Shown one piece after another: positions 8,791 through 29,064 of a DNA stretch of 39,026 nucleotides (position 1 is the stretch's first letter; each line of letters starts with the position of its first letter). The notes under the pieces were generated by a model that worked only from the letters and a program-made list of their open reading frames with translations, was not told the origin of the DNA and searched no databases. The DNA comes from a virus: the IMG/VR virus record IMGVR_UViG_3300025870_001054, positions 1 to 39,026 of that record; one strand, 5' to 3'. The position numbers were made by a program, and so were the translations under genes.

Positions 8791-8798
8791 TATAAATA
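8791..8798 (+). promoter_or_regulatory. Late promoter octamer ahead of the nuclease-like gene
   Basis: Exact TATAAATA directly after the gene 41 stop and 27 nt before the TTG start at 8825. It would switch expression from replication to late genes. Confidence 0.65.
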
Positions 8799-8824: not shown

Positions 8825-9754
8825 TTGATTAGCTTTAAGGGGTATATCACGGAAATGGCCAACACTGATTCTGCTGATATTAATGAAATCCAATTGGGCT
8901 TTTTCTTGTCTAACAATTGGAAAAATTTTGATGGTGCAAACGCCGCCAAAAAACAATTAAAAGATAAAACTGACAAGGTTGGTACTGCAGAATATAATTC
9001 TCAGACTGAAAAAGCTAAGGCAATGGCCAAGGAAGTATTATCTTGGTCAAAGGATAACGGCTATAGTGGTAAAGTTAAACGGGTTTGGTGGACTGCCAGA
9101 CCCGGCATTTTAGCAAAGGCTGTTGGTAAAACAGTAGATAGTCGTAAAAACCCAACTGATATTCTTGTACAGTTTTCAGACGATAAATTCTTAGGCTTAT
9201 CAGCAAAATCAACAAAGACACAAGGTGATATTGGATTTAAGAATCCTGGCCTTGGTACTATTGAGAAAGCTGTTGGTAAAATGCCAAACTTTGCTCAAGA
9301 TGCTGTTGATACTCTTATGAAAAACTATCCTAACTTAAGCACCGCTGCGAGCAAACGTAAATCTGAAATACGAGCTGACGATGGTATTGGCAAAGCTGCT
9401 GAGTACTTAGGAACTGCGGTACTTAATAAAATTAGAGATGACCTATTCAAAAAATTAAATGGTATGAGAGAAAAAGACTTAGTAAATTATATCATTAATG
9501 ATTGGATGGATGCAACTGCCGTATATCCTAGGTACATTAAAATTACTGGTATGCGTGTAGGTGCTAAGGTTGAAGATCCTTTATCAAATAGCAAACTTTC
9601 AAAGTTAATGCTAGGTAATATTAAATTAGTCAAGGTCGGAAACGACAGTGTTGGAATTATGGCAGATGGTAATCGTATTATGAAAATGCGTGCTAAATAC
9701 GAGTCACAAAAGCTTGCCTCAACAATTAAATTTTCTGGAGATCCTTGGAAATGA
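8825..9754 (+). CDS. Late protein with capsid-targeting-like N-terminus, nuclease-like
   Basis: A 309-aa protein starting with TTG after AAAGAGG. Its first ten residues (MISFKGYITE) match the pattern of the T4 internal-protein capsid-targeting sequence (MKTYQEFIAE), which the gp21 protease cleaves after Glu10. A candidate PD-(D/E)xK nuclease core is visible: TDILVQF with D112, then LGLSAKS with S126-A-K128, and a possible upstream motif WWTARPG (88-94). I know homologues only as hypothetical proteins of marine T4-like phages. Its stop overlaps the next gene, which has the same N-terminal module. Packaging in the head and nuclease activity are both inferences; the late promoter supports a virion role. 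Confidence 0.75.
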   Translation: MISFKGYITEMANTDSADINEIQLGFFLSNNWKNFDGANAAKKQLKDKTDKVGTAEYNSQTEKAKAMAKEVLSWSKDNGYSGKVKRVWWTARPGILAKAVGKTVDSRKNPTDILVQFSDDKFLGLSAKSTKTQGDIGFKNPGLGTIEKAVGKMPNFAQDAVDTLMKNYPNLSTAASKRKSEIRADDGIGKAAEYLGTAVLNKIRDDLFKKLNGMREKDLVNYIINDWMDATAVYPRYIKITGMRVGAKVEDPLSNSKLSKLMLGNIKLVKVGNDSVGIMADGNRIMKMRAKYESQKLASTIKFSGDPWK

Positions 9755-10980
9755 TAAGATTTAAAAAGTTCATCGCGGAATCTAAAAATACGCACATGGA
9801 ACACCTTGAAGATAACATTCTCAACAATGGTGTTATTGGAACTCGAGATTCAATCAACTTCCTTAGAGCTTTAAGAGATATGCTTGCAGGTAGTAGTAAA
9901 TCTAAAATAAACGTTACAGTTAAATGGGATGGTGCACCAGCAATCTTTGCCGGTACTGATCCAACTGATGGTAAATTCTTTGTTGCCAAGAAAGGTATCT
10001 TTAATAAGAACCCAAAGGTATACAAAACAAACGCAGATGTTGACGCCGACACAAAAGGCGATTTGAATACAAAATTAAAACTAGCTTTGGCTGAGTTTCC
10101 TAAACTCGGTATCAAAGGAATAGTACAAGGCGACTTTTTATATGCTAAAGAAGATCTCAAAGAGGTGGACATTAATGGTGAACCGCACGTTACTTTCCAT
10201 CCTAACACTATTGTTTACGCGGTACCTAAAGCATCAAAACTCGGTAAAGAAATACTCGGATCCAAGATCGGAGTGGTATGGCATACAACGTACCGAGGAA
10301 CAGAATTTGAAAAAATGTCTGCAGCTTTTGGAGAGGAGATTGCATCAGGCCTCTCAAAAGTAAAAAGCATTTGGTCAGTAGATGCTGTGTATAAAGACTT
10401 GTCTGGAACCGCAAATATGACTAAGAAGGAAACTGATGAAGTAACTAAAATCTTATCATCCGCCGGTAAAAAATTCAATACAATTAAGAAAGAAACTCTT
10501 AATGGTATTTCTCAGAATCCAGATACATTACAAAAAGTTAAAACATTTGTTAATAGCAAAATTCGTATTGGCGAAAGAATTAAGAATCCTCGTAAATTAG
10601 CTAAGGATCTGACTGATTATATTGATGACTATTACGAACAGCAAGCTGCTACTCGTAAGACTGATAAGGGTAAAGCTGCTCAACGCCAGAAAAAAGATGC
10701 TACATTAGATTATTTTAAACGTACACCAGAATCTCAAATTACTGCGATGTTTGAATTATATAATTTGCTTATAGATGCAAAACACATTTTAATTGGAAAA
10801 TTAGATAGAGCAAAAACAATTGGTACGTTCTTAAAAACAAAAGAAGGTTATCAAGTAACTGGCAGCGAAGGCTTTGTTGCTATTGACCACATGGGTAAGA
10901 ACGCAGTTAAACTCGTCGATAGACTTGAGTTTAGTAATGCAAACTTCTCCGACAAATATATTAAAGGGTGGGAAAAATAA
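9751..10980 (+). CDS. Nucleotidyltransferase/ligase-like late protein, capsid-targeting-like N-terminus
   Basis: A 409-aa protein. The ATG at 9751 overlaps the previous stop and has GGAG 10 nt upstream, preferred over TTG at 9745. It begins MIRFKKFIAE, a close match to the T4 capsid-targeting decamer. The body has features of the DNA/RNA ligase-mRNA capping nucleotidyltransferase fold: KWDG at 58-61 (KxDG motif I with the candidate nucleotidylated Lys58), FFVAKKGIF just after, GIVQGDFLYAK (motif III-like), and SEGFVAID with VKLVDR near the C-terminus (motifs IV and V-like). The family is common in marine T4-like phages as a hypothetical protein. Ligase activity is not established. Confidence 0.78.
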   Translation: MIRFKKFIAESKNTHMEHLEDNILNNGVIGTRDSINFLRALRDMLAGSSKSKINVTVKWDGAPAIFAGTDPTDGKFFVAKKGIFNKNPKVYKTNADVDADTKGDLNTKLKLALAEFPKLGIKGIVQGDFLYAKEDLKEVDINGEPHVTFHPNTIVYAVPKASKLGKEILGSKIGVVWHTTYRGTEFEKMSAAFGEEIASGLSKVKSIWSVDAVYKDLSGTANMTKKETDEVTKILSSAGKKFNTIKKETLNGISQNPDTLQKVKTFVNSKIRIGERIKNPRKLAKDLTDYIDDYYEQQAATRKTDKGKAAQRQKKDATLDYFKRTPESQITAMFELYNLLIDAKHILIGKLDRAKTIGTFLKTKEGYQVTGSEGFVAIDHMGKNAVKLVDRLEFSNANFSDKYIKGWEK

Positions 10981-11204
10981 TGGCATGGGTTGACGTACCA
11001 GGATCAAACGCTATTTGGCAATATGATAATGCAGCTACAGCAGCAGATACATATGTTGATGCAAACGGAACAACAGCCGCAGGCATTAGAACATTTACAC
11101 CTACCGGCGGTAACGCTCAGCTAACTTATGTTAAAGTACGTAAGAAGGGCGAGACTATTGAACGTGGCGAATTAAGCAAAAACTATTATGACGGGAAAAT
11201 CTAA
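10980..11204 (+). CDS. Small late, probably virion-associated protein
   Basis: A 74-aa protein starting at the TAATG overlap (ATG at 10980). The sequence is beta-prone and rich in Ala/Thr/Asn (SNAIWQYDNAATAADTY), with a conserved-looking end, KKGETIERGELSKNYYDGK. It resembles small structural proteins of marine T4-like phages, from memory. It ends the operon starting at the late promoter at 8791. No function can be given beyond a likely virion association. Confidence 0.65.
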   Translation: MAWVDVPGSNAIWQYDNAATAADTYVDANGTTAAGIRTFTPTGGNAQLTYVKVRKKGETIERGELSKNYYDGKI

Positions 11205-11232
11205 TGGTTGATAACCCGACATAATGCCACAG

Positions 11233-11259
11233 TTGACACTGGTGAATACCGGCTATACC
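11233..11259 (+). promoter_or_regulatory. Weak sigma70-like promoter candidate
   Basis: TTGACA at 11233-11238 and TATACC at 11254-11259, with a short 15-bp spacer. An AATAAATA at 11291-11298, one base off the late octamer, is the other candidate for the cassette starting at 11380. Confidence 0.3.
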
Positions 11260-11379
11260 AAATTGGTAACCCTTGTTTACCTATTTTCCTAATAAATATA
11301 TTTGTAAAAAGGATTAAACCTAGGCATACGGTCTAGGATCGGATCATACAACATACACATATATTAGAGGAAACGGAAT

Positions 11380-11634
11380 ATGTCACAAGCTATCCTTACA
11401 GCTCACAGTTTTTTAACACAAGGTGTTGAAGGTTTCATGGATTTTATGAAATCAGTAAACGAAAAAAGAATTCAGCAAAAAGCAATTCGCATGACTGAAA
11501 AAGAATTGTCACGATTATCAAACGCAGAGTTAGATGATATTGGAATTACTCGTGGAGATATTCACACTATCGCACGCTCATCAGTTGCTATCAACAACGT
11601 AAGAGCAAATAACAATTTGCGAGGTTGGGTATAA
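11380..11634 (+). CDS. DUF1127 domain protein
   Basis: An 84-aa protein with TTAGAGGAAA upstream. Residues about 40-66 (EKELSRLSNAELDDIGITRG followed by DIHTIAR) match the DUF1127/YjiS pattern of short Arg-rich proteins that are abundant in alphaproteobacteria. Bacterial members have been linked to RNA binding, RNA turnover and phosphate or carbon regulation. The N-terminal 35 residues form an extra amphipathic helix. It heads a three-gene cassette with overlapping starts. A phage copy may imitate a host regulator; this is inference. Confidence 0.82.
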   Translation: MSQAILTAHSFLTQGVEGFMDFMKSVNEKRIQQKAIRMTEKELSRLSNAELDDIGITRGDIHTIARSSVAINNVRANNNLRGWV

Positions 11635-11825
11635 TGGAAGTAGTAGGAAACACACCAGTAGAAACACCACGCTTCATCCGTAAGTTTGGAAAAATCATTG
11701 TTGCAATCGGAATGGGTGTATGGGCATTTGGTGAATCAGCAGGTAGAGCAAGAGCAGCAGCTGAATTATCACGTCAAGGATATCACCAAGAAGCAAGACG
11801 TTTGATGTTAGGAGACAATGCATGA
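11634..11825 (+). CDS. 63-aa protein with one hydrophobic helix
   Basis: The start is taken at the TAATG overlap (11634) rather than TTG at 11625. A hydrophobic stretch (KIIVAIGMGVWAFG, about 20-33) could be a membrane anchor, followed by a basic helix GRARAAAELSRQGYHQEARR. Its RQGYHQEARRLM end resembles the RQSGHHRAANEI stretch of the next gene, so the cassette may share a motif. No family is identified with certainty. Confidence 0.65.
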   Translation: MEVVGNTPVETPRFIRKFGKIIVAIGMGVWAFGESAGRARAAAELSRQGYHQEARRLMLGDNA

Positions 11826-11956
11826 TTAAGAAGTTTATGAAAGCAATGGAATACCGCAGCTACTGTATGGCTATTCGTCAATTACGTCAAAGTGGACATC
11901 ACAGAGCAGCTAATGAAATTTCTGAGTACAAACATAGTATGTATCCAACTCACTAA
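11822..11956 (+). CDS. 44-aa basic protein, third gene of the DUF1127 cassette
   Basis: The start overlaps the previous stop (ATGA at 11822-11825). The peptide begins MIKKFMKAMEYRSY and contains QLRQSGHHRAANEISEY, similar to the end of the preceding protein. It is small, basic and helix-prone, with no membrane segment. It is followed by the late promoter and terminator at 11975-12010. Confidence 0.55.
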   Translation: MIKKFMKAMEYRSYCMAIRQLRQSGHHRAANEISEYKHSMYPTH

Positions 11957-11974
11957 TTACCGTTTTGAAATCCA

Positions 11975-11982
11975 TATAAATA
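11975..11982 (+). promoter_or_regulatory. Late promoter octamer of the glycan-modifying operon
   Basis: Exact TATAAATA, 48 nt before the methyltransferase at 12030. The expected start near 11988 falls in the left arm of the next terminator, so its own transcripts would lack that arm and should escape termination. Confidence 0.6.
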
Positions 11983-11984
11983 CT

Positions 11985-12010
11985 AAGGTAGGCGAAAGTC
12001 TACCTTTTTT
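11985..12010 (+). terminator. Rho-independent terminator overlapping a late start site
   Basis: AAGGTAGGC (11985-11993) pairs with GTCTACCTT (11998-12006), with one G-U pair, around a GAAA tetraloop; a T-run continues to 12010. It ends transcripts from the DUF1127 cassette. Confidence 0.85.
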
Positions 12011-12029
12011 GATTTAATGGAGAGAGATT

Positions 12030-12593
12030 ATGGGAAGAATACGTGATAGAGGCCACGACGGTGGTAACGTTTATAGATGGCAAACCTTAGCCAATTTTGT
12101 TAACAGCAACGGATTTACTAAAGGCGCAGAACTTGGTATTCATGACGGTGTTAATTATAGGTTTCTAATTCAAAACTGTCCTAACCTTCATATGATCGGT
12201 GTAGATTTATATGAAGCACAACCAGATAATAATGGTCCAGAAAAATGGACTCCAGGCGAACATGGACACGCATGGGATCATAATTCTTATTATCAAAACA
12301 TGCTTAAATTTAGCAGTCATTTTCCAAACCGTACACAAATTGTTAAAGACTATACAACCAATGCTTGCAATGAAGTAGAGGATGGTTCACTTGATTTTAT
12401 TTTTATTGATGCCGACCATGGATATGAAGGATGCTTAAGAGATATTAAAGCTTGGGATAGTAAGGTACGAGAAGGCGGTATTGTGTTTGGGCATGACATT
12501 CATTTTCCAACCGTACAAAGAGCTGTTACTGAATTTTATGGTGAAAACTCTTGGTTTGTTGAAGATGACTTCATCTGGTGGATTCAAAAGTAA
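12030..12593 (+). CDS. Class I SAM-dependent methyltransferase
   Basis: A 187-aa protein with a GGAGAGAG site. The glycine-rich SAM loop is GAELGIHDGVN (about 32-42), an acidic strand end is GVDLYEA (57-63), and motif DFIFIDADHGYEG lies near 126-138, as in methyltransferases of sugars and small molecules. It is first in a four-gene run with two glycosyltransferases and a sulfotransferase, so a sugar O-methylation role is plausible. The late promoter at 11975 points to virion or late surface modification. Confidence 0.8.
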   Translation: MGRIRDRGHDGGNVYRWQTLANFVNSNGFTKGAELGIHDGVNYRFLIQNCPNLHMIGVDLYEAQPDNNGPEKWTPGEHGHAWDHNSYYQNMLKFSSHFPNRTQIVKDYTTNACNEVEDGSLDFIFIDADHGYEGCLRDIKAWDSKVREGGIVFGHDIHFPTVQRAVTEFYGENSWFVEDDFIWWIQK

Positions 12594-13243
12594 TGAATAT
12601 CGAAAAGAAACTCAGTCAAATATGGATTGGTCCAAAGCCCGCTCCATTGCAGTGGATGCACACTTGGCGTGATAAACATCCTGAGTGGGAATATTCTATA
12701 TTTACAGATGAAATGTTACGATCACGTAAGTGGTTTAATTCACACTTAATTGAACATTATTATAACACTCGTAAATGGCCAGGTGTATCAGATCTTATTA
12801 GATACGAACTATTGTATGAACGTGGGGGGTTTTGGCCTGAAGCTGATATGACTTGTTTAGAAAATACTGATGAGTTATTTACTGCACCAAAAAACCATGC
12901 TTATTCTTGTTATGAGAACGAAAGAGGTAGGCAAAATTTTATTCAACCAATTATGGCTGCTAATCCAGAAAATGTTTTCGTTAGACATGTTATTGAAACA
13001 TTACATAAAGTAAGACCTGAGCACTTATCACCAGAACCTTTTAGGTCTACGGGTAATATGTTTTTAGCTCAACACATTCCTCAATTCAGGGAAATGCTTA
13101 CAATTTGGCCTTCACATTATTTTATTCCGTTGTATTATATCGGTGGGGCTAAAAGGTATGATGGACCTGATAAAGTATATGCCGACCACAAATGGGGATC
13201 AACCGGCCACGCAAATAGTATTGATTATGGAAAGGGAGTGTAA
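12593..13243 (+). CDS. Glycosyltransferase with GT32-like sugar-binding region
   Basis: A 216-aa protein starting at the TAATG overlap; GTG at 12578 is less likely. The N-terminus KLSQIWIGPKPAP and the core SDLIRYELLYERGGFWPEAD (66-85) match the DXD-sugar-binding (Gly_transf_sug) family, where the Asp pair binds metal and nucleotide sugar. Here the DxD is E83-A-D85, so the first acid is Glu. No membrane segment. The donor and acceptor cannot be read from sequence. Confidence 0.78.
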   Translation: MNIEKKLSQIWIGPKPAPLQWMHTWRDKHPEWEYSIFTDEMLRSRKWFNSHLIEHYYNTRKWPGVSDLIRYELLYERGGFWPEADMTCLENTDELFTAPKNHAYSCYENERGRQNFIQPIMAANPENVFVRHVIETLHKVRPEHLSPEPFRSTGNMFLAQHIPQFREMLTIWPSHYFIPLYYIGGAKRYDGPDKVYADHKWGSTGHANSIDYGKGV

Positions 13244-13902
13244 TGTATATATCGCACAAATATAAATTGATTTACTTAAGAAGTCCTAAAACAGGCAGCT
13301 CATCATTATCAGAGTTTTTTATTAGAAACATTCCTGACCCAAGCGCAGTATATACACCGGTTGAAGATTCAAGAATACAGGGAACTGTTTCTCCTAATTT
13401 AATAGCTAAGTATTCAGCAAACTATAAATTCTATCACTTTACAATAGAAGATCTAATTAAAGAAAAGTTGATTACCGAGGAACAAGCAAACACATATAAA
13501 GTGGTATCAGTTATAAGAGATCCAGTTGATAGACAAAAAAGTTTCTTTTACTTCTATGGTAAATGGAAAGGTCGTGGGCAGCCTTTGAATTTAAATCATT
13601 ATAAGGCATGGGCTCCTAATGGATACTTCCAAGGTGAACCAAATTCTGCTATTAAACAATCAGACTTTTTAAAGCTTGGTGATAAATACATTGGAGAGTT
13701 TTGGTTATATGAAGACTTAAACTATAAAGTAATTGAATTAATGAAACAATTACAAATTAAAATAGAACATCCTCTTCCAAGCCATAAATCAAACTTTAGA
13801 AAAGCTCGAGAAAACGAAATAACATTTGATAGTGAAATTATGGATAAGATGCTAGAAGTATTTGCACCTGATTTTGAAACATATAATGAGTTGAAAGGCT
13901 AA
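13243..13902 (+). CDS. PAPS-dependent sulfotransferase-like protein
   Basis: A 219-aa protein starting at the TAATG overlap. The N-terminal loop RSPKTGSSSLSEFF (13-26) is the 5'-phosphosulfate-binding motif of the Sulfotransfer_2 type. VVSVIRDPVDRQKSFFYF (87-104) is the 3'-phosphate-binding motif with R92 and S100. The end (EVFAPDFETYNEL) is typical of the family. It would move sulfate from host PAPS to a hydroxyl, probably on a sugar made by neighbouring transferases. Phage sulfotransferases are uncommon; a second occurs in the fusion protein at 31275. Confidence 0.82.
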   Translation: MYISHKYKLIYLRSPKTGSSSLSEFFIRNIPDPSAVYTPVEDSRIQGTVSPNLIAKYSANYKFYHFTIEDLIKEKLITEEQANTYKVVSVIRDPVDRQKSFFYFYGKWKGRGQPLNLNHYKAWAPNGYFQGEPNSAIKQSDFLKLGDKYIGEFWLYEDLNYKVIELMKQLQIKIEHPLPSHKSNFRKARENEITFDSEIMDKMLEVFAPDFETYNELKG

Positions 13903-13905
13903 CTA

Positions 13906-14598
13906 ATGTGGGTTACTAAAGCACATATTTTAAAAATTGATACACCTATATCTAATCAATATGCTGCGGTTGCTGCACAATCGTGTAACAATGTAGGATT
14001 GCCTTGGGAATATTTTAATGGCTTCCATAAGCAAACTGGTAAAATGGCCTTTGGTCAACTAGGGATTAAAAACTTACCTACCGAACCATATAGGTTAATG
14101 GAAAATACTCAGAACTCGCAAAAGGCTATGTGTTGTACAGCAGGGCACTTTGGTATTTGGAAAAAGATTGCTGAAGGACCAGATCAAGCTGCGGTAGTAC
14201 TTGAACATGATGCTATTATGCTGCAGCCAATTAATCTAAACATACCTGAAAATAGAATAGTAGTACTTGGGTATAAACTAAATGATCCTAAAAGATATGA
14301 TTGGATAAAGGCTGGACCTCCTAAAACTATTATTGATATTAAAGGACACGAAGGTGCCCATGCATATGCAATGACTAAATCCACTGCTATTAAGTTGATC
14401 AAAGAAATAGAACAAAAAGGTATTAGAAGTGCAGTTGATAATGACTATTTTATATTAGGACAACGCCGTACTGAGATACCTTTATCAATCATGTCGCCAA
14501 CTCCTGCGATGGGATGGCTTAGAGAGTCAACTATTTGGGGTAAATCGGCTGCTAGAAACTACGATTTCATACCTTCTTTTCAAAGAAATTATAAATAA
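13906..14598 (+). CDS. GT25-like (LPS-type) glycosyltransferase
   Basis: A 230-aa protein three bases after the sulfotransferase. MCCTAGHFGIWKKIAE (75-90) and AVVLEHDAIML (96-106, acidic triad E100-H-D102) match the GT25 family, which adds galactose or other sugars to lipooligosaccharide. HAYAMTKSTAIKLI is a further family-like segment near the middle. No signal peptide. It ends the late glycan operon, and the next late octamer overlaps its 3' end. Confidence 0.8.
   Translation: MWVTKAHILKIDTPISNQYAAVAAQSCNNVGLPWEYFNGFHKQTGKMAFGQLGIKNLPTEPYRLMENTQNSQKAMCCTAGHFGIWKKIAEGPDQAAVVLEHDAIMLQPINLNIPENRIVVLGYKLNDPKRYDWIKAGPPKTIIDIKGHEGAHAYAMTKSTAIKLIKEIEQKGIRSAVDNDYFILGQRRTEIPLSIMSPTPAMGWLRESTIWGKSAARNYDFIPSFQRNYK
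14590..14597 (+). promoter_or_regulatory. Late promoter octamer of the 916-aa protein gene
   Basis: Exact TATAAATA overlapping the stop of the GT25-like gene, 38 nt before the ATG at 14635. It probably drives the run of late genes to about 18248. Confidence 0.65.
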
Positions 14599-14600
14599 AC

Positions 14601-14620
14601 ACATATATGTTTGTACAAAC
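14601..14620 (+). repeat. Two palindromes at the late transcription start
   Basis: ACATATATGT (14601-14610) and GTTTGTACAAAC (14609-14620) are perfect palindromes that overlap by two bases. They lie where the late transcript should begin, between the octamer and the ATG. Confidence 0.5.
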
Positions 14621-14634
14621 ACGGGACAATTAGT

Positions 14635-17385
14635 ATGGCTAAGCCAGACAAAAAGAAAAAAGTTAAAGGTTTTAAAGAGTTCGACGGAAGTAAGTATATC
14701 AATACTGAACCTGTTCTCGATGAAGCTAAAGCGGGAACTGTAGTTATTGCATGGGGTCGTATGAATCCTATGACTGCAGGTCACGAAATGCTCGTTAAGA
14801 AAGTTATTGATGTGGCCAAGACCGAAAAAGGTACTCCACAAATTTACTTAACACATAGCCAAGGAGCAAAAACTAAAACTGGCAAAGGTGCGGTCAATAA
14901 AGATCCATTAGCATATGATGATAAAATCAAATTTGCTCAAAAAGCTTTTGGTCCCATTGTTAAAAAATCTCCAGCAAAAACTATCATACAATTACTTAAA
15001 CTCCTTGATAAACAGTTTGATAGAGTTGTATTGGTGGTTGGATCTGATAGAGTCACAGAGTTTAACAATACATTAAATAAGTACAATGGAAAAGAATATA
15101 AATTCAGCGAACTTAAAATCGTGTCAGCCGGCCAAAGAGATGAGGAGGCCGATGATGTATCAGGGATCTCAGGTACTAAAATGCGTGGATACGCTAAGAC
15201 AGACATGAAAAAATTTACTGCAAACTTACCGAAAAAATTAAAAGGCGACGCCGAGAAAATTGCAGCGTTAGTAAATAAAGGCACTCAAATGACAGAAGAA
15301 TCAGACTTAGATGAAGCTTTATCACGTCAGGAAAGACGTAAAAGAGGTTTGGCTATGAAAAAAGCTAGATTCAAAATCGCCCGCGGTAGAGAAAAGGCTA
15401 AGAGAAAAACTGCATCTATGGAGGTTCTCAAAAAGAGAGCACGTAAGGCAGCTATTAATATTCTTAAAACAAAGTTTTCTAAGTCAAGAAGATATGCTGA
15501 CATGTCTGCTGGCGAAAAGGAAGTTATCGATAAGCGTATTGAAAAAGTAAGTAAACAGCGTATCGATGCAATTGCTAGAAAGCTTTTACCAAAAGTAAAA
15601 ACTGCTGAAAGAGAACGTCGTTTAAATCTAGCTAAAGGTGGTTCTTCAAAACAAGAAGAAGTAACTGAAACAACTGGAGCATATTTCAAAGGCGTTGAAA
15701 AAGAAAAAAGAGATGATCGTGAACGCCACTTTGATCGCAATGCTAAAAAGGCTGATGACGATGCTTCAGCTTATAAGCCAGCACCAGGCGACAAAGAAGC
15801 TAAAACAAAAGAATCAAAGCATACCAAAAAAGCACGGGCAATGGGTTACATTGAAGAGCTTGTATGGGAAGACCTTGTTGAAGGTTTAGACGAAGCAATG
15901 TGGGGCCAAAGAATTAGTAAAAAACCACATATGTTAATGGATAAAAATAACAAAGTTAAATTTGATAAACGTTTTAAAATGTACAAGCCAAAAGTACAAG
16001 AAGATTTAGATCTTAGCGACATTAAAGATTTAGCAAATTCAACTGAAGATTTTATAACAGAGGAAACTGAAATGCGTTCATTTAGTCAGTTCATTAAAGA
16101 AGATTGGGTGTGCGGCCAATGCAGTTGCGATCCATGTACATGCGGTGAAGAAAATCTTTCAGAAGATGCCGCTGGAAAGTCTTTAAAAAGTAAAGCAGAA
16201 AAATCCGGTATGCCAACGAGCGTTTTACGTCAAGTTTATAACCGCGGTGTTGCTGCATGGAAAACAGGACATCGTCCTGGAACAACTCCTGAACAATGGG
16301 GTCATGCTCGAGTAAACTCGTTTATTACTAAATCAAAAGGAACATGGGGTAAGGCTGATAAAGACCTCGCTGATAAAGTTCGTGGTTCATCTAAGAAAGA
16401 AGAAGCTGAACAGCTTGACGAATTATCTCCTGAAACTTTAAAGAGCTATAAGAAAAAAGCTATGAAGCAATACACGCAATCAGCGAATAAAAGAAATCCT
16501 GGTGGCGGCAATTATGGATCAGCAACAAAGGCTGCTCAAGATAAACATCAAAAGAGATTTGATAAGCGTCATAAAGGTATTGGTTCAGAAATTAAACGTA
16601 CAACTGATTCTGATATTCACTTAAAAGATCCAAAAGGTCTTGTAAGAAAAGATCCAAAATCAAATTCAATGACTGGTAAACCAGCACCTTATAAGAATAG
16701 AGCTGAATCTAAGGTTAATGAAGCCATTATGAGTAATCAACTCGATGAATTAACTGCAGCTGAAAAGAAACTTATCAATCAAATGTATGATAAGAAAGGC
16801 AACCTTACTCCTATGGGTAAGAAAGTTATGGATCATGGTAAAGCAAATAGCAAACTTACTCCTAAAAACAGAGATGCTGATAACGCGAGACGTAAAGAAT
16901 ATAATGCATATCAAAAGTCAAAGCGTAACGAAGAAGTTGAATCAACTCTTGATGAAGCACCTCGTCGCAAAGGCGCGCCAAAAATGACAGGTGACTCTAT
17001 TGCGATTCAACGTGCAAAAGATGCAGAGCATAACAAAGCAATGGGTCGTACTAAAACCGGTCGTAAGAAACCAGTTCGTACAATGACTTCAACTCAAAGA
17101 TCATTGGCTCAACTCCGTGGAGAAGAAACAATTGAAGAAAAGAATGGCTTATGGGCAAACATACATGCTAAAAGAGCTCGCGGCGAAAAGATGAGAAAAA
17201 AGGGTGAAGAAGGCGCACCAACTCCTGAGGCTATTAAAAGAGCTCAAGAATCTTTTAGCGAAGACCTTGATGCTATCATGTCAAACCTTGATATGGTAAA
17301 CGAGGTTGCTGGAGCAGGTGAGCAAGGTACTCCTGAATTAACTAAAAAATATAAAAAAGACACTCCAATGGAAGATAAGAAATGA
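14635..17385 (+). CDS. 916-aa modular protein: nucleotidyltransferase domain plus LDE-separated modules
   Basis: ATG at 14635 is chosen over TTG at 14611. Residues about 31-215 form a nucleotidylyltransferase (HIGH-type) domain: GRMNPMTAGHEML (41-53) and GISGTKMRGYA (177-187). After it come very basic helical segments (about 230-335), a Cys cluster CGQCSCDPCTCG (493-504), a DUF5824-like region (YNRGVAAWKTGHRPGTTPEQ, from 535) and further basic modules. LDE occurs at 28-30, 225-227, 418-420, 594-596, 703-705 and 772-774, each at a module border. L/I-x-E is the cleavage motif of the T4 prohead protease gp21. M480-E489 (MRSFSQFIKE) repeats the capsid-targeting decamer. A processed internal-head polyprotein is inferred. 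The N-terminal enzyme activity is unproven. Confidence 0.8.
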   Translation: MAKPDKKKKVKGFKEFDGSKYINTEPVLDEAKAGTVVIAWGRMNPMTAGHEMLVKKVIDVAKTEKGTPQIYLTHSQGAKTKTGKGAVNKDPLAYDDKIKFAQKAFGPIVKKSPAKTIIQLLKLLDKQFDRVVLVVGSDRVTEFNNTLNKYNGKEYKFSELKIVSAGQRDEEADDVSGISGTKMRGYAKTDMKKFTANLPKKLKGDAEKIAALVNKGTQMTEESDLDEALSRQERRKRGLAMKKARFKIARGREKAKRKTASMEVLKKRARKAAINILKTKFSKSRRYADMSAGEKEVIDKRIEKVSKQRIDAIARKLLPKVKTAERERRLNLAKGGSSKQEEVTETTGAYFKGVEKEKRDDRERHFDRNAKKADDDASAYKPAPGDKEAKTKESKHTKKARAMGYIEELVWEDLVEGLDEAMWGQRISKKPHMLMDKNNKVKFDKRFKMYKPKVQEDLDLSDIKDLANSTEDFITEETEMRSFSQFIKEDWVCGQCSCDPCTCGEENLSEDAAGKSLKSKAEKSGMPTSVLRQVYNRGVAAWKTGHRPGTTPEQWGHARVNSFITKSKGTWGKADKDLADKVRGSSKKEEAEQLDELSPETLKSYKKKAMKQYTQSANKRNPGGGNYGSATKAAQDKHQKRFDKRHKGIGSEIKRTTDSDIHLKDPKGLVRKDPKSNSMTGKPAPYKNRAESKVNEAIMSNQLDELTAAEKKLINQMYDKKGNLTPMGKKVMDHGKANSKLTPKNRDADNARRKEYNAYQKSKRNEEVESTLDEAPRRKGAPKMTGDSIAIQRAKDAEHNKAMGRTKTGRKKPVRTMTSTQRSLAQLRGEETIEEKNGLWANIHAKRARGEKMRKKGEEGAPTPEAIKRAQESFSEDLDAIMSNLDMVNEVAGAGEQGTPELTKKYKKDTPMEDKK
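16059..16074 (+). promoter_or_regulatory. Possible internal ribosome binding site and start
   Basis: AGAGG stands eight bases before ATG 16072-16074 inside the 916-aa gene. Initiation here would give a 437-aa product starting MRSFSQFIKE. It may be a working internal start or a relic of a gene fusion. Confidence 0.45.
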
Positions 17386-17675
17386 TAAGGTTTAGCCAAT
17401 ACATTTCTGAAGGTGTTAAGCTTAAGTATATCCGTGACAAAAACATGGGTGTACTTAAGATGTGGAACAAGGGTGATAAGAAATGGGTAGAGTTGCGCGG
17501 CAAGCCAAATTTTGAAATTACTTTTGATCCTAAAGATCCATTACACAATGCAATTAAAGATCTTGGAAAGGCTACTAATATTTCTGATTTTGTTAATGGC
17601 GAAGAAGTAAGTATTAATCCAAACCATCCAGATGGCAAGAAAGCCTTAGCTACAATAAAAAGGTTAATGAAATGA
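17382..17675 (+). CDS. 97-aa late protein with capsid-targeting-like N-terminus
   Basis: The start overlaps the previous stop (ATGA). The first ten residues MIRFSQYISE fit the T4 internal-protein targeting decamer. The rest is a compact basic domain (MGVLKMWNKGDKKWVEL, then PNHPDGKKALATIKRLM). No known family. It belongs to a run of four to five short genes that share this start and probably encode internal head proteins. Confidence 0.68.
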   Translation: MIRFSQYISEGVKLKYIRDKNMGVLKMWNKGDKKWVELRGKPNFEITFDPKDPLHNAIKDLGKATNISDFVNGEEVSINPNHPDGKKALATIKRLMK

Positions 17676-17899
17676 AATCATTTAAACAGTTTTGTGAAGG
17701 TTCAGAAACATGGGAAGCTGGTTATAAGCGCCGTGTTGTAAAAACAACTGATCCTGACCATAAAGAGGCAGGACATAATTGGCGTATTAAAGGCAAAGAT
17801 AGACCAAACATTTCTATTAAGCTATATAAAGAGAAGCCATCGCAGGCTGAATTTAATAAACAAATGAAACGAGTAGCGGGGCACGAGTTTGGTGGATAA
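17672..17899 (+). CDS. 75-aa late protein, capsid-targeting-like N-terminus
   Basis: ATGA overlap with the previous gene. It begins MKSFKQFCEG, a shorter variant of the shared decamer. The rest is basic with several His and Trp residues (GHNWRIKGKDRP, ending VAGHEFGG). No known family. Length and charge fit a DNA-associated internal head protein, but this is inferred from context. Confidence 0.62.
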   Translation: MKSFKQFCEGSETWEAGYKRRVVKTTDPDHKEAGHNWRIKGKDRPNISIKLYKEKPSQAEFNKQMKRVAGHEFGG

Positions 17900-18248
17900 T
17901 TTTAAAAGATATACAGAAGAACGCATTGATCAAATTTGTGAGGAATGTAATCTATACGAAGATTTAGTAGTTGAAGAGTCAGAGTTTGAAGGACGCAAAG
18001 TAAAACTCAACGATCCTATTAGAACTTCTGAAAATAAAAACAAGAAATTTAAAGTATATGTTAAAAACGAAAAAGGAAATATTGTTGTAGTTCGTTTTGG
18101 TGATCCGAATTTGTCTATTAAGAGAGACGATCCAAAACGTCGCGCATCATTTAGAGCTAGACATGGGTGTGATAATCCAGGTCCTAAATGGAAAGCAAAG
18201 TATTGGTCATGCTATCAATGGCGTGCTGGTGCTAAAGTAGATAGTTAA
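17892..18248 (+). CDS. 118-aa late protein with RARHGC motif
   Basis: The start is taken as GTG at 17892, overlapping the previous stop; TTG at 17889 is possible. It begins (M)DNFKRYTEE, again like the targeting decamer. The C-terminal part RFGDPNLSIKRDDPKRRASF followed by RARHGC and YWSCYQW is a signature I associate with recurrent phage and giant-virus small proteins; the two Cys may bind metal. A variant of the late octamer follows its stop. Confidence 0.66.
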   Translation: MDNFKRYTEERIDQICEECNLYEDLVVEESEFEGRKVKLNDPIRTSENKNKKFKVYVKNEKGNIVVVRFGDPNLSIKRDDPKRRASFRARHGCDNPGPKWKAKYWSCYQWRAGAKVDS

Positions 18249-18274
18249 ATAAATATAAGAAAAAAGGCAACCCT

Positions 18275-18619
18275 ATGCAAAATTTTAAAGACCACATTTC
18301 AGATATGTATATTATAGAATATGCAGAATCACAAGATATTGATATTAATGAACTTACCGAAGAAGAACTTAATGAGTTAATCGGTAAAGCAATTGGTGGT
18401 GCATTTAAAATAGGTGCTAAATCTGTTGTAGGTGCAGCTCGGTTAGCTAAAAAAGGTGCTAACAGAATGTCTGCTTCAGGTAGAGCTGATGCTGCTGAGA
18501 AAAAAGCAAATGCGATTGAAAAGAAAAATGCAGATCGTAAACGCATTCAGGATGCCAAAGCTAGAGTAGTTGCAGCAAAAGCAGCAGCGAGACAACGTAA
18601 TAAACCCGCAACATCATAA
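18275..18619 (+). CDS. 114-aa Ala/Lys-rich helical protein, probable internal head protein
   Basis: AAAAAGG precedes the ATG. It begins MQNFKDHISD, a variant of the targeting decamer with Asp at position 10. Then follow an acidic stretch (ELTEEELNELIG), a Gly/Ala-rich amphipathic segment (GGAFKIGAKSVVGAARLA) and a long Lys/Ala/Arg-rich helix to the end. The composition fits a DNA-binding core or membrane-active ejected protein. No family is identified. Confidence 0.65.
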   Translation: MQNFKDHISDMYIIEYAESQDIDINELTEEELNELIGKAIGGAFKIGAKSVVGAARLAKKGANRMSASGRADAAEKKANAIEKKNADRKRIQDAKARVVAAKAAARQRNKPATS

Positions 18620-18627
18620 TATAAATA
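18620..18627 (+). promoter_or_regulatory. Late promoter octamer ahead of small structural gene
   Basis: Exact TATAAATA immediately after the stop of the previous gene and 32 nt before the ATG at 18659. Placement and strong Shine-Dalgarno suggest high late expression. Confidence 0.68.
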
Positions 18628-26740: not shown

Positions 26741-27868
26741 ATGAGCGTTTTCGACGTTAACAACCGTGCCGACCATACCACCGTAGCATCCTTTATGGAT
26801 CCAACTGGTGGTCCAACAATTCAGCGTTATGATACACTAAAGTACAAACAGTTTGATCAATTGACCGATAAGCAACTCGGTTTCTTTTGGCGTCCAGAGG
26901 AAGTGGATATCTATCAGGATGCTAAAGACTTTAAAGCTCTTACAGAGCATGAGCAACATATTTTTACATCAAACCTAAAGCGTCAGATCCTATTGGATTC
27001 TGTACAAGGGCGTGCACCAGCCGAAAGCTTTGGTTCTATTGTGTCTTTGCCTGAGCTTGAAAATTGGATTATCACATGGACGTTTTCTGAAACAATCCAT
27101 AGCCGTTCATACACTCATATTATTCGTAACATCTATTCTAACCCGTCAAAAATCTTTGATGAAATGATGGATATTGAAGAAATCGTAAATTGTGCTGATG
27201 CTATTTCAGGCTATTATGATAACCTTATCGAAATGGCAGGTTATTACAATTTGCTTGGCGAAGGACGTCATGCCATCAATGGAGACATTGTTGTAGTAGA
27301 TAAATATGAAATGAAGAAACAGCTATACCTTGCATTAATGAGCGTTAACATTTTAGAAGGCGTTCGTTTTTATGTTTCATTTGCTTGCTCTTGGGCTTTC
27401 GCTGAGCTTAAAAAGATGGAAGGTAATGCTAAAATTATTAAGTTGATTGCACGTGATGAAAACCTACACCTTGCTTCTACTCAAATGATGCTTAAACTCC
27501 TCCGTAAAGAGGATCCAGATTTTGAACAGATTGCAATGGAAACAGAAGAAGAATGTACACAAATGTTTGTTGATGCTGTAGACCAAGAAAAAGAGTGGGC
27601 TGAATATCTATTTAAAGATGGCTCCATGATTGGCTTGAATACTGAATTGCTAAGCCAGTATATTGAATGGATTTGTACTCGTCGCATGACAAATGTAAAA
27701 CTTAAATCACCGTACAACATTAAAAACAACCCTCTCCCTTGGACTCAAAAATGGATTTCTGGAGCTGACGTGCAAGTTGCGCCACAGGAAACAGAAATTA
27801 CATCTTATATTCAAGGTGGTACAAAACAAGACGTGTCTAGTGATACGTTTAAAGGATTTAGTTTGTGA
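26741..27868 (+). CDS. nrdB: Ribonucleotide reductase beta subunit NrdB (class Ia)
   Basis: A 375-aa diiron-tyrosyl radical subunit. The first ligands D86, E117 and H120 and the radical Tyr124 ([11 protein letters not shown]) sit two residues after the E. coli positions; the later EGVRFYVSF and [10 protein letters not shown] motifs supply the remaining ligands. A strong AAAAAGGAAG precedes the ATG. Its stop overlaps the GTG of hemA, coupling the two genes. Confidence 0.96.
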
Positions 27869-29064
27869 TATATGAACATTATTTCGATAAAGTAATCGAA
27901 GAATATAGAAAAGACGGTAGATATAGAGTATTCAATGATATTATTAGGGAGCGTGGAAACTTTCCAAAAGCTATTTGGTATGGTAAATATGCCCCTAAAA
28001 ATATAGTCAATTGGTGCTCTAATGACTACCTTGGTATGGGTCAAAATCAATATGTAATTGATGCGATGCATACCGCATTAGACCAAACAGGTGCAGGTTC
28101 CGGCGGTACGAGAAATATCGGCGGAACCTCACAGTATCATGTTACGCTAGAAAGAGAGCTTGCATCATTACACCAAAGGGAATCGGCGTTGCTTTTTAGT
28201 AGCGCCTATGTAGCAAATGAATGGTCGATAATTGCTTTAGCACGAATCATTCCAAACATATGTTTTATTTCAGATAATAAAAACCATGCATCATTAATTA
28301 TGGGTGTAAAGCATAGTCGTGCTGATAAGATTATTTTTGAGCATAACAACATGGAAGACTTGGAAAAATGTTTAAAGCAAGCCGTAAAAGCTAAACAAAC
28401 ACCATGTATTTTATTTGAATCTGTATACTCTATGGATGGAGACATTGCTCCTATTAAGGATATTGTTGACCTTGCAAAACAATATAGTGCCATTACATAT
28501 ATAGATGAAGTACACGCAGTTGGTCTATATGGACCTACAGGTGCTGGTTATTGTGAGCACCTTAATCTATATTCCGATGATATTGATATTATTAATGGTA
28601 CACTTGGTAAAGCCTTTGGTGTACAAGGTGGATATATTAGTGGTAATCAAAAAATCATTGACGCAATTAGATCTGTTGCAAGTGGATTTATTTTTACTAC
28701 TTCAATATCACCAGTGATGTGTGCAGGTGCTATTGCATCAATTAAATATTTAAAAGACCACGATTGGCTTCGTCGTAAGCATCAGAAAAAAGCAAATCAG
28801 CTTAAACATATGCTTAATCACGCCGAAATCAAAGTACACGAAAATGCTTGCACTCACATTGTTCCTGTAATGATTAACGACGCATTTAAGTGTAAAACAG
28901 CAAGTGATAAATTACTTAATAACTATGGAATTTATATTCAGCCTATAAATAGTCCGACGGTGTCTCAAGGCACTGAAAGACTACGTATAGCTCCAACACC
29001 TTATCATACTGATACCATGATGGTAGAATTGGTAAGCGCTTTAAAGGAAGTATTACATAAATGA
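27865..29064 (+). CDS. hemA: 5-aminolevulinate synthase (HemA, ALAS)
   Basis: A 399-aa PLP enzyme condensing glycine and succinyl-CoA to 5-aminolevulinate, the first step of heme synthesis in alphaproteobacteria (Shemin route). Hallmarks: [17 protein letters not shown] (76-92), [11 protein letters not shown] (186-196), [14 protein letters not shown] (213-226, with D214 and H217) and the PLP lysine K249 in NGTLGKAFG. Start is GTG at 27865, overlapping the nrdB stop, with AAAGGA upstream. No Cys-Pro heme regulatory motif is seen. The gene is full length for bacterial ALAS, and its product could feed the heme oxygenase and bilin reductase encoded at 1495-2940. Confidence 0.96.

Follow-up and report, generated by a model that had tools for sequence, protein, structure and literature searches.

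Leader-addressed, injected internal proteins are already known from the T-even phages. The internal proteins of T4 (Ip1-3, or IPI-IPIII) are injected inhibitors of type IV restriction enzymes that have the leader alone in common (PMC12373910), and amber-suppressor work on IPIII assigned residues 4 and 7 to targeting and residues 8 and 10 to processing, the protease requiring L/I-x-E (PMC9026906). In the present study we analysed a 39-kb IMG/VR virus record from a T4-like phage (IMGVR_UViG_3300025870_001054, hereafter the window, meaning the whole stretch of DNA analysed), in which several genes begin with a decamer tag of the consensus M-x-x-F-x-x-[FY]-[LI]-x-E. This decamer is very probably a T4-type capsid-targeting sequence that directs proteins to the head. 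Packaging of the tagged proteins is well supported, their cleavage by the prohead protease after residue 10 is likely from the residues at the predicted site, and injection as counter-defence, by analogy with T4, has about an even chance of being correct.

The tags resemble the leaders of IPI-IPIII and other T-even internal proteins in length, in the aromatic residues at positions 4 and 7, in L/I at position 8 and in E at position 10, and both sets of genes have late-type promoters, unrelated bodies and a variable locus. They differ in that the T4 proteins are small inhibitors of about 95-193 residues, whereas the marine cargo reaches 444 residues and includes predicted enzyme folds, and in that F rather than Y dominates at position 4 of the marine tags. 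Two other described systems are partly alike. T4 Alt, a virion ADP-ribosyltransferase, is an enzyme that travels in the head, undergoes processing by gp21 and is injected, and the ejection proteins of phiKZ and SPN3US are large and injected as well, with cleavage following the Glu of S/A-x-E (PMC9026906). In our comparison Alt did not rank with the high-scoring T4 open reading frame (ORF) starts, and no search aimed at Alt relatives was made. The propeptides of phiKZ and SPN3US are different and often longer, their protease is divergent, and we know of no uniform decamer in them.

Tagged genes of the window

The decamer was found at the following places, genes being named by the position at which they start.

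8825..8854, plus strand: tag MISFKGYITE, at a TTG start; predicted cut after E10; 9/9 homologues tagged
9751..9780, plus strand: tag MIRFKKFIAE; predicted cut after E10; E10 invariant in 48 homologues
17382-17411, plus strand: tag MIRFSQYISE; 15/15 homologues tagged
Gene 17672, plus strand: degenerate tag MKSFKQFCEG; Gly at position 10; matrix score 12.1
Gene 17892, plus strand: tag MDNFKRYTEE, at a GTG start
Gene 18275, plus strand: tag MQNFKDHISD; D10
16072..16101, plus strand: internal tag MRSFSQFIKE, at the junction ahead of a DUF5824 domain

A sequence-only reading of the window had assigned six genes to one pattern with Glu or Asp at position 10. This holds for 8825, 9751, 17382, 17892 and 18275 and fails for 17672, which has Gly at that position, and the internal copy that it had placed at 16072 was read directly as MRSFSQFIKE. 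The T4 decamer MKTYQEFIAE, which it had attributed to IPI-III as a group, is exact in IPII and IPIII, whereas IPI starts with MKTFKEFTST. The likeness to the T4 leader that it had proposed stands, since the aromatic residues at 4 and 7, L/I at 8 and E10 are all present, and it is weaker for 17672 and 17892. For the 18275 protein, targeting and packaging without processing are predicted because of the effect of Asp10 in T4 IPIII (PMC9026906).

The gene order of the window is gp32 - 5857 - uvsX - gp41 - 8825 - DUF6267 (gene 9751) - ... - cytidylyltransferase - small genes - head-like gene - ... - gp61 - thyX - nrdA - nrdB, the names of the replication genes being assigned by sequence and synteny. 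This order is shared with Stenotrophomonas phage DLP6, Pelagibacter phage HTVC008M, Methylophilales phage Melnitz and the cyanophages S-SM1 and S-PM2, and the interval from gp41 (helicase) to gp61 (primase) is occupied in the window by the set of tagged genes.

Match to the T4 leader and gene 61.1

The N-termini of DUF6267 proteins were gathered by alignment, with no motif filter, to limit circularity. In this unfiltered set F4 was present in 61/72, F/Y7 in 63/72, L/I8 in 65/72 and E10 in 66/72 sequences, the remaining columns being variable, and in an alignment of 48 DUF6267 sequences the invariance of E10 equalled that of the catalytic residues. The conserved columns 4, 7, 8 and 10 coincide with the residues that control targeting and processing of T4 IPIII. 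When a matrix was built from 170 tags, with T4 left out, the four best-scoring of 270 T4 ORF starts were those of the uncharacterised 61.1, IPIII, IPII and IPI, and the same four were on top among 277 T4 ORF starts when the matrix was built from the unfiltered DUF6267 N-termini. The first of them was located as follows.

NC_000866 18966-19130 (L298:1067-1231), minus strand: T4 gene 61.1, adjoining the tifA/dmd/adfA anti-toxin genes

Gene 61.1 encodes 54 residues starting with MKTFKEFIKE, with D following the putative cut, and has the best tag-matrix score of all T4 ORF starts; we predict from this N-terminus that it is a fourth leader-bearing internal protein of T4. A search with an approximate query (a few residues differ from the record) gave a sign that 61.1 is widespread. 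The three anti-toxin genes dmd, tifA and adfA lie together with 61.1 in the gp41-gp61 interval of T4, the same helicase-to-primase interval (genes 41 to 61) as in the window. The T4 island differs in that 61.1 alone carries the tag there and in that dmd-tifA has an early promoter. The products of dmd, tifA and adfA are synthesised inside the cell once it has been infected.

Distribution of the tag across relatives

The comparison set consisted of the window and 148 related IMG/VR loci, in which 2,822 ORFs were called. The regular expression M..[FY]..[FYHW][ILVMCT].[ED] matched 240 times near the ORF starts versus 20 times at 13,930 internal ATGs. By family, strict matches were found in 9/9 homologues of 8825, 15/15 of 17382, 74/110 of DUF6267 and 12/39 of 17892. 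The tag was present in 0 of about 256 N-termini of gp32, the 5857 protein, UvsX, gp41, gp61, ThyX, NrdA and NrdB, so that the equal occurrence in early enzymes, which the sequence-only reading had named as evidence against its proposal, was not seen in these proteins of replication and nucleotide metabolism.

The codons vary at every conserved residue of the tag, six Leu and three Ile codons being used at position 8, and because synonymous codons vary at conserved residues, the tag appears to be conserved and selected at the protein level. The location of the decamer at start codons, in genes that lie within a recombination hotspot, would also suit a nucleotide-level signal, such as a translation initiation, mRNA or recombination element. 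However, the free variation of synonymous codons at positions 4, 7, 8 and 10 and the retention of an in-frame internal copy at a domain junction make such a signal extremely improbable, and the decamer is better read as a protein address.

More than 25 clusters of bodies without blast similarity to one another were found behind the tag. Profile comparison of the main slot families, based on shallow alignments, showed weak similarity only between clusters 4 and 16, and by eye a hydrophobic-x-[SE]-x-K strand, as in 8825, was seen in several slot proteins. The clusters and the profile comparison are in line with the proposal of unrelated domains behind one address tag. The slot directly upstream of DUF6267 is regarded as a cargo slot with rapid turnover because the gene there bore the tag in 51/67 loci and came from many unrelated families. 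Further tagged enzymes in the relatives included an HD_4 phosphohydrolase (L086), a zeta-toxin/polynucleotide-kinase-like protein (L133), a HAD/polynucleotide-phosphatase-like protein (L130) and a ParB-like protein (L173). The tagged HD_4 protein (L086:13803-14357) resembles (p)ppGpp hydrolases and is a candidate injected alarmone-clearing enzyme.

Late promoters, prohead protease and virion proteins

The support found for the earlier description of the tagged genes as late is a single one, namely the T4-type late promoter sequence TATAAATA at three places.

8791..8798, plus strand: T4-type late promoter TATAAATA, 26 bases ahead of the 8825 start
14590..14597, plus strand: late promoter TATAAATA, preceding 14635 and lying within the last codons of the previous gene
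18620..18627, plus strand: late promoter TATAAATA, preceding the head-protein-like gene 18659

The window contains eight copies of TATAAATA, all on the plus strand, six of which lie in the 6% of the DNA that is non-coding (P about 1e-6), and a seventh overlaps the last codons of the gene that precedes 14635. The frequency of the sequence in the window is not significant (8 versus 4.8 expected); the non-coding placement is.

A gp21-type (S77) prohead protease was found in 5/5 of the cultured relatives searched, in T4 and in 5/6 IMG/VR records, the sixth record being a 99-kb fragment. All ten searched relatives with large genomes carry it. According to Sullivan et al. 2010 (PMC3037559), S-SM1 virions contain T4-GC190, a putative cytidylyltransferase; T4-GC190 is SSM1_190, and its N-terminus reads MKKFSAFLNE followed by A. 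S-SCSM1 virions contain the NMNAT ORF91, as stated in a 2022 study (PMC9602691); this protein starts with MKSFLQFLKE followed by A, and the adjacent ORFs 89, 90, 92 and 93 carry annotations as virion proteins. Cytidylyltransferase is also present in S-CREM2 virions (PMC10665884). T4-GC190 and S-SCSM1 ORF91 belong to the family of window gene 14635 and both bear the decamer, but they were reported as virion-associated proteins or possible contaminants, and the packaging signal is not recognised in the passages of those reports that were read. The proposal of a capsid-targeting tag on unrelated cargo is consistent with the cross-clade matrix, with the match to the IPIII residues, with the gp21-type protease and with the published mass spectrometry that detected tagged homologues in virions.

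Detection in virions alone cannot separate the head from the tail, and the neighbours are inconsistently annotated as 'tail fiber' or 'head', which would also suit an N-terminus that docks on another late structure (tail, baseplate or membrane assembly site) instead of the head core. Such docking is very improbable, since in T4 this profile picks out precisely the internal proteins of the head and residues 8-10 fit the prohead protease specificity [LI]xE, and the head remains the preferred destination.

The cytidylyltransferase gene

14635..17385, plus strand: cytidylyltransferase/NMNAT-like multidomain protein, 916 residues (phrog_3041 E 2e-80, DUF5824 E 4e-16)
14716..14727, plus strand: predicted prohead-protease site LDE before A, ending the propeptide KGFKEFDGSKYINTEPVLDE, 9 residues before the catalytic GRMNPMTAGH
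16192..16365, plus strand: DUF5824 domain, a separate tagged cargo in some relatives

The cytidylyltransferase of the window has no N-terminal decamer and starts with a longer leader, KGFKEFDGSKYINTEPVLDE, followed by A. In the 30-residue stretch before the core, [LI]xE[ASG] was found in 22/35 homologues, 18 of them at the same distance, versus 12% of random windows, and several other homologues have a tag-like N-terminus in that stretch. FKEF is likewise separated from a later ITE before A in T4 IPI, where the cut site is our own reading. In the cytidylyltransferase family LxE[ASG] occurs 276 times versus 100 expected. LxE is strongly enriched in this family, but also in two unrelated untagged families (13906 and 19364), and its enrichment is suggestive only as a measure of cargo.

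In four relatives (L182, L194, L209 and L211) DUF5824 forms a gene by itself, which begins with a tag, and in the window the internal tag at 16072 precedes this domain; the tag travels with its cargo and survives fusion.

Predicted folds of the enzyme cargo

8825..9754, plus strand: tagged cargo 1, PD-(D/E)XK endonuclease-like, 309 residues, in the variable slot upstream of DUF6267
9751..10980, plus strand: tagged cargo 2, DUF6267/phrog_455, 409 residues (Pfam PF19782 E 5e-113)

The AlphaFold (AF2) model of 8825 had a predicted local distance difference test (pLDDT) score of 84.5, with residues 1-11 below 50, and the AlphaFold model of 9751 scored 82.6, with residues 1-15 below 50; the tag region is probably flexible because the confidence was low there (pLDDT <50) in both models. 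The fold assignments were based on VIA-align and on invariant motifs, and Foldseek gave nothing with E <0.001 for the two models. The closest solved structures to 8825 were HinP1I (Z 8.4 over 206 residues) and MspI (Z 6.5), followed by Dna2, Hjc and other PD-(D/E)XK structures. A PD-(D/E)XK nuclease fold is predicted for the 8825 product. D112, S126 and K128 are invariant in the family, but Ser occupies the (D/E) position of the catalytic D...(D/E)xK. The best 50 matches of 9751 were all RNA or DNA ligases (Naegleria RNA ligase Z 8.2, T4 Rnl1 Z 7.4), and K58, D60 and G61 of motif I KxDG are invariant in DUF6267. The model of 9751 points to an RNA/DNA-ligase-type nucleotidyltransferase because the match list is uniform and the KxDG motif is present, a Z near 8 being modest in itself. 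No match of DUF6267 was found in T4.

Small tagged genes and other genes of the window

17382..17675, plus strand: tagged small protein, 97 residues
17672..17899, plus strand: small protein with the degenerate tag, 75 residues
17892..18248, plus strand: tagged small protein, phrog_7595, 118 residues
18275..18619, plus strand: tagged small basic protein, 114 residues
18659..18970, plus strand: phrog_613 'head protein' neighbour, no tag

The phrog_613 neighbour was untagged in 34 homologues. The small basic protein 18275, together with the head-assembly role of IPIII in T4 (PMC9026906) and with nuclease and ligase folds that could act on packaged DNA ends, would suit cargo that the tag brings to the prohead and that works inside the head, in scaffolding, in condensing DNA, or in processing genome ends or repairing DNA ahead of exit, and not as injected effectors. 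We hold this to be unlikely, because the extreme turnover in one slot is more readily explained by conflict over host range or defence than by a conserved role in assembly, the HD phosphohydrolase and the NMNAT-like cargo are without obvious use in the head, and T4 Ip1-3, with only the leader in common, are injected inhibitors (PMC12373910). Injected effectors are the preferred reading of the cargo.

A gene cassette at 12030-14598, composed of methyltransferase, sugar transferase, sulfotransferase and GT25 genes, lies between both groups of tagged genes and probably serves surface or glycan modification. The window also contains a heme oxygenase at 1495-2043 (PF01126, E 1e-20) and an aminotransferase-fold protein at 27865-29064 that resembles 5-aminolevulinate synthase, which are two possible heme-pathway genes. 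A small DUF1127 protein (PF06568) is located at 11380-11634; DUF1127 is common in proteobacteria, and one such protein is annotated in Melnitz too. The product of 589-1398 begins like a signal peptide and resembles an outer-membrane porin in sequence, with no Pfam match.

Discussion

Several observations weigh against capsid targeting by the decamer. The homologues in HTVC008M and S-PM2 are without clear decamers, residues 8-10 are poor in the families of 17672 and 17892, and the window is a fragment that does not span the head genes. The cut after residue 10 in the tagged proteins is predicted from a fit to [LI]xE. Extra gp21-type sites were rejected as a general mark of cargo, the tagged bodies being slightly depleted in LxE. 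The authors of two virion proteomes warn that NMNAT may have co-purified as a contaminant; the packaging signal on the NMNAT/cytidylyltransferase family argues against contamination.

We propose that the tagged proteins would be made late in infection, that the aromatic residues 4 and 7 would dock them on the prohead scaffold or core as in T4, and that the gp21-type protease would cut after [L/I]-x-E (residues 8-10) and leave the untagged cargo trapped in the head. This cargo would be composed of unrelated, mostly enzymatic proteins encoded between the helicase gp41 and the primase gp61, and by analogy it would probably be ejected with the DNA and may act before phage transcription begins, most likely in damage repair or in blocking host defences. 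A counter-defence role is suggested because the T4 gp41-gp61 interval holds anti-toxin genes and the T4 internal proteins inhibit restriction enzymes. It is a guess of moderate strength that the nuclease, ligase, end-processing and NAD-making folds form a kit by which host defence is undone or forestalled during the first minutes. More tentatively, and with somewhat less than even confidence, marine and freshwater T4-like phages may use a universal, swappable head-address peptide to deliver at time zero a kit for counter-defence and repair whose members are hypervariable and mostly enzymes (nuclease, ligase-type, end-processing, NAD-making and alarmone-hydrolase-like). The genes of this kit would lie in the helicase-primase interval, which in T4 is the anti-toxin island, and 61.1 would be an unrecognised fourth member in T4.

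A review of T4 anticipated a wider use of the leader, and apart from it no earlier description of capsid targeting in cyanophages was found in the open-access literature. The spread across the marine T4-like clade, the large enzymes, the identified cargo slot, the virion-proven members and the predicted, so far unrecognised T4 member appear to be undescribed.

Marine relatives of T4 thus seem to mark many unrelated enzymes with a single short address label, which is probably cut off; the enzymes are packed in the head and very likely delivered into the host with the DNA, and this extends a trick described for T4 and its closest kin to some of the commonest viruses of the ocean. The 10-residue profile may serve as an annotation rule that marks the hypothetical proteins of abundant marine T4-like phages riding in the head, and the tag is an independent reason to view the NMNAT-like proteins of cyanophage virions as true cargo and not contaminants. 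The profile also predicts a new internal protein of T4, 61.1, and the tagged genes provide a natural catalogue of packaging leaders carrying enzymes of more than 400 residues. The helicase-primase interval is identified as a hotspot in which new injected counter-defence proteins may be sought.

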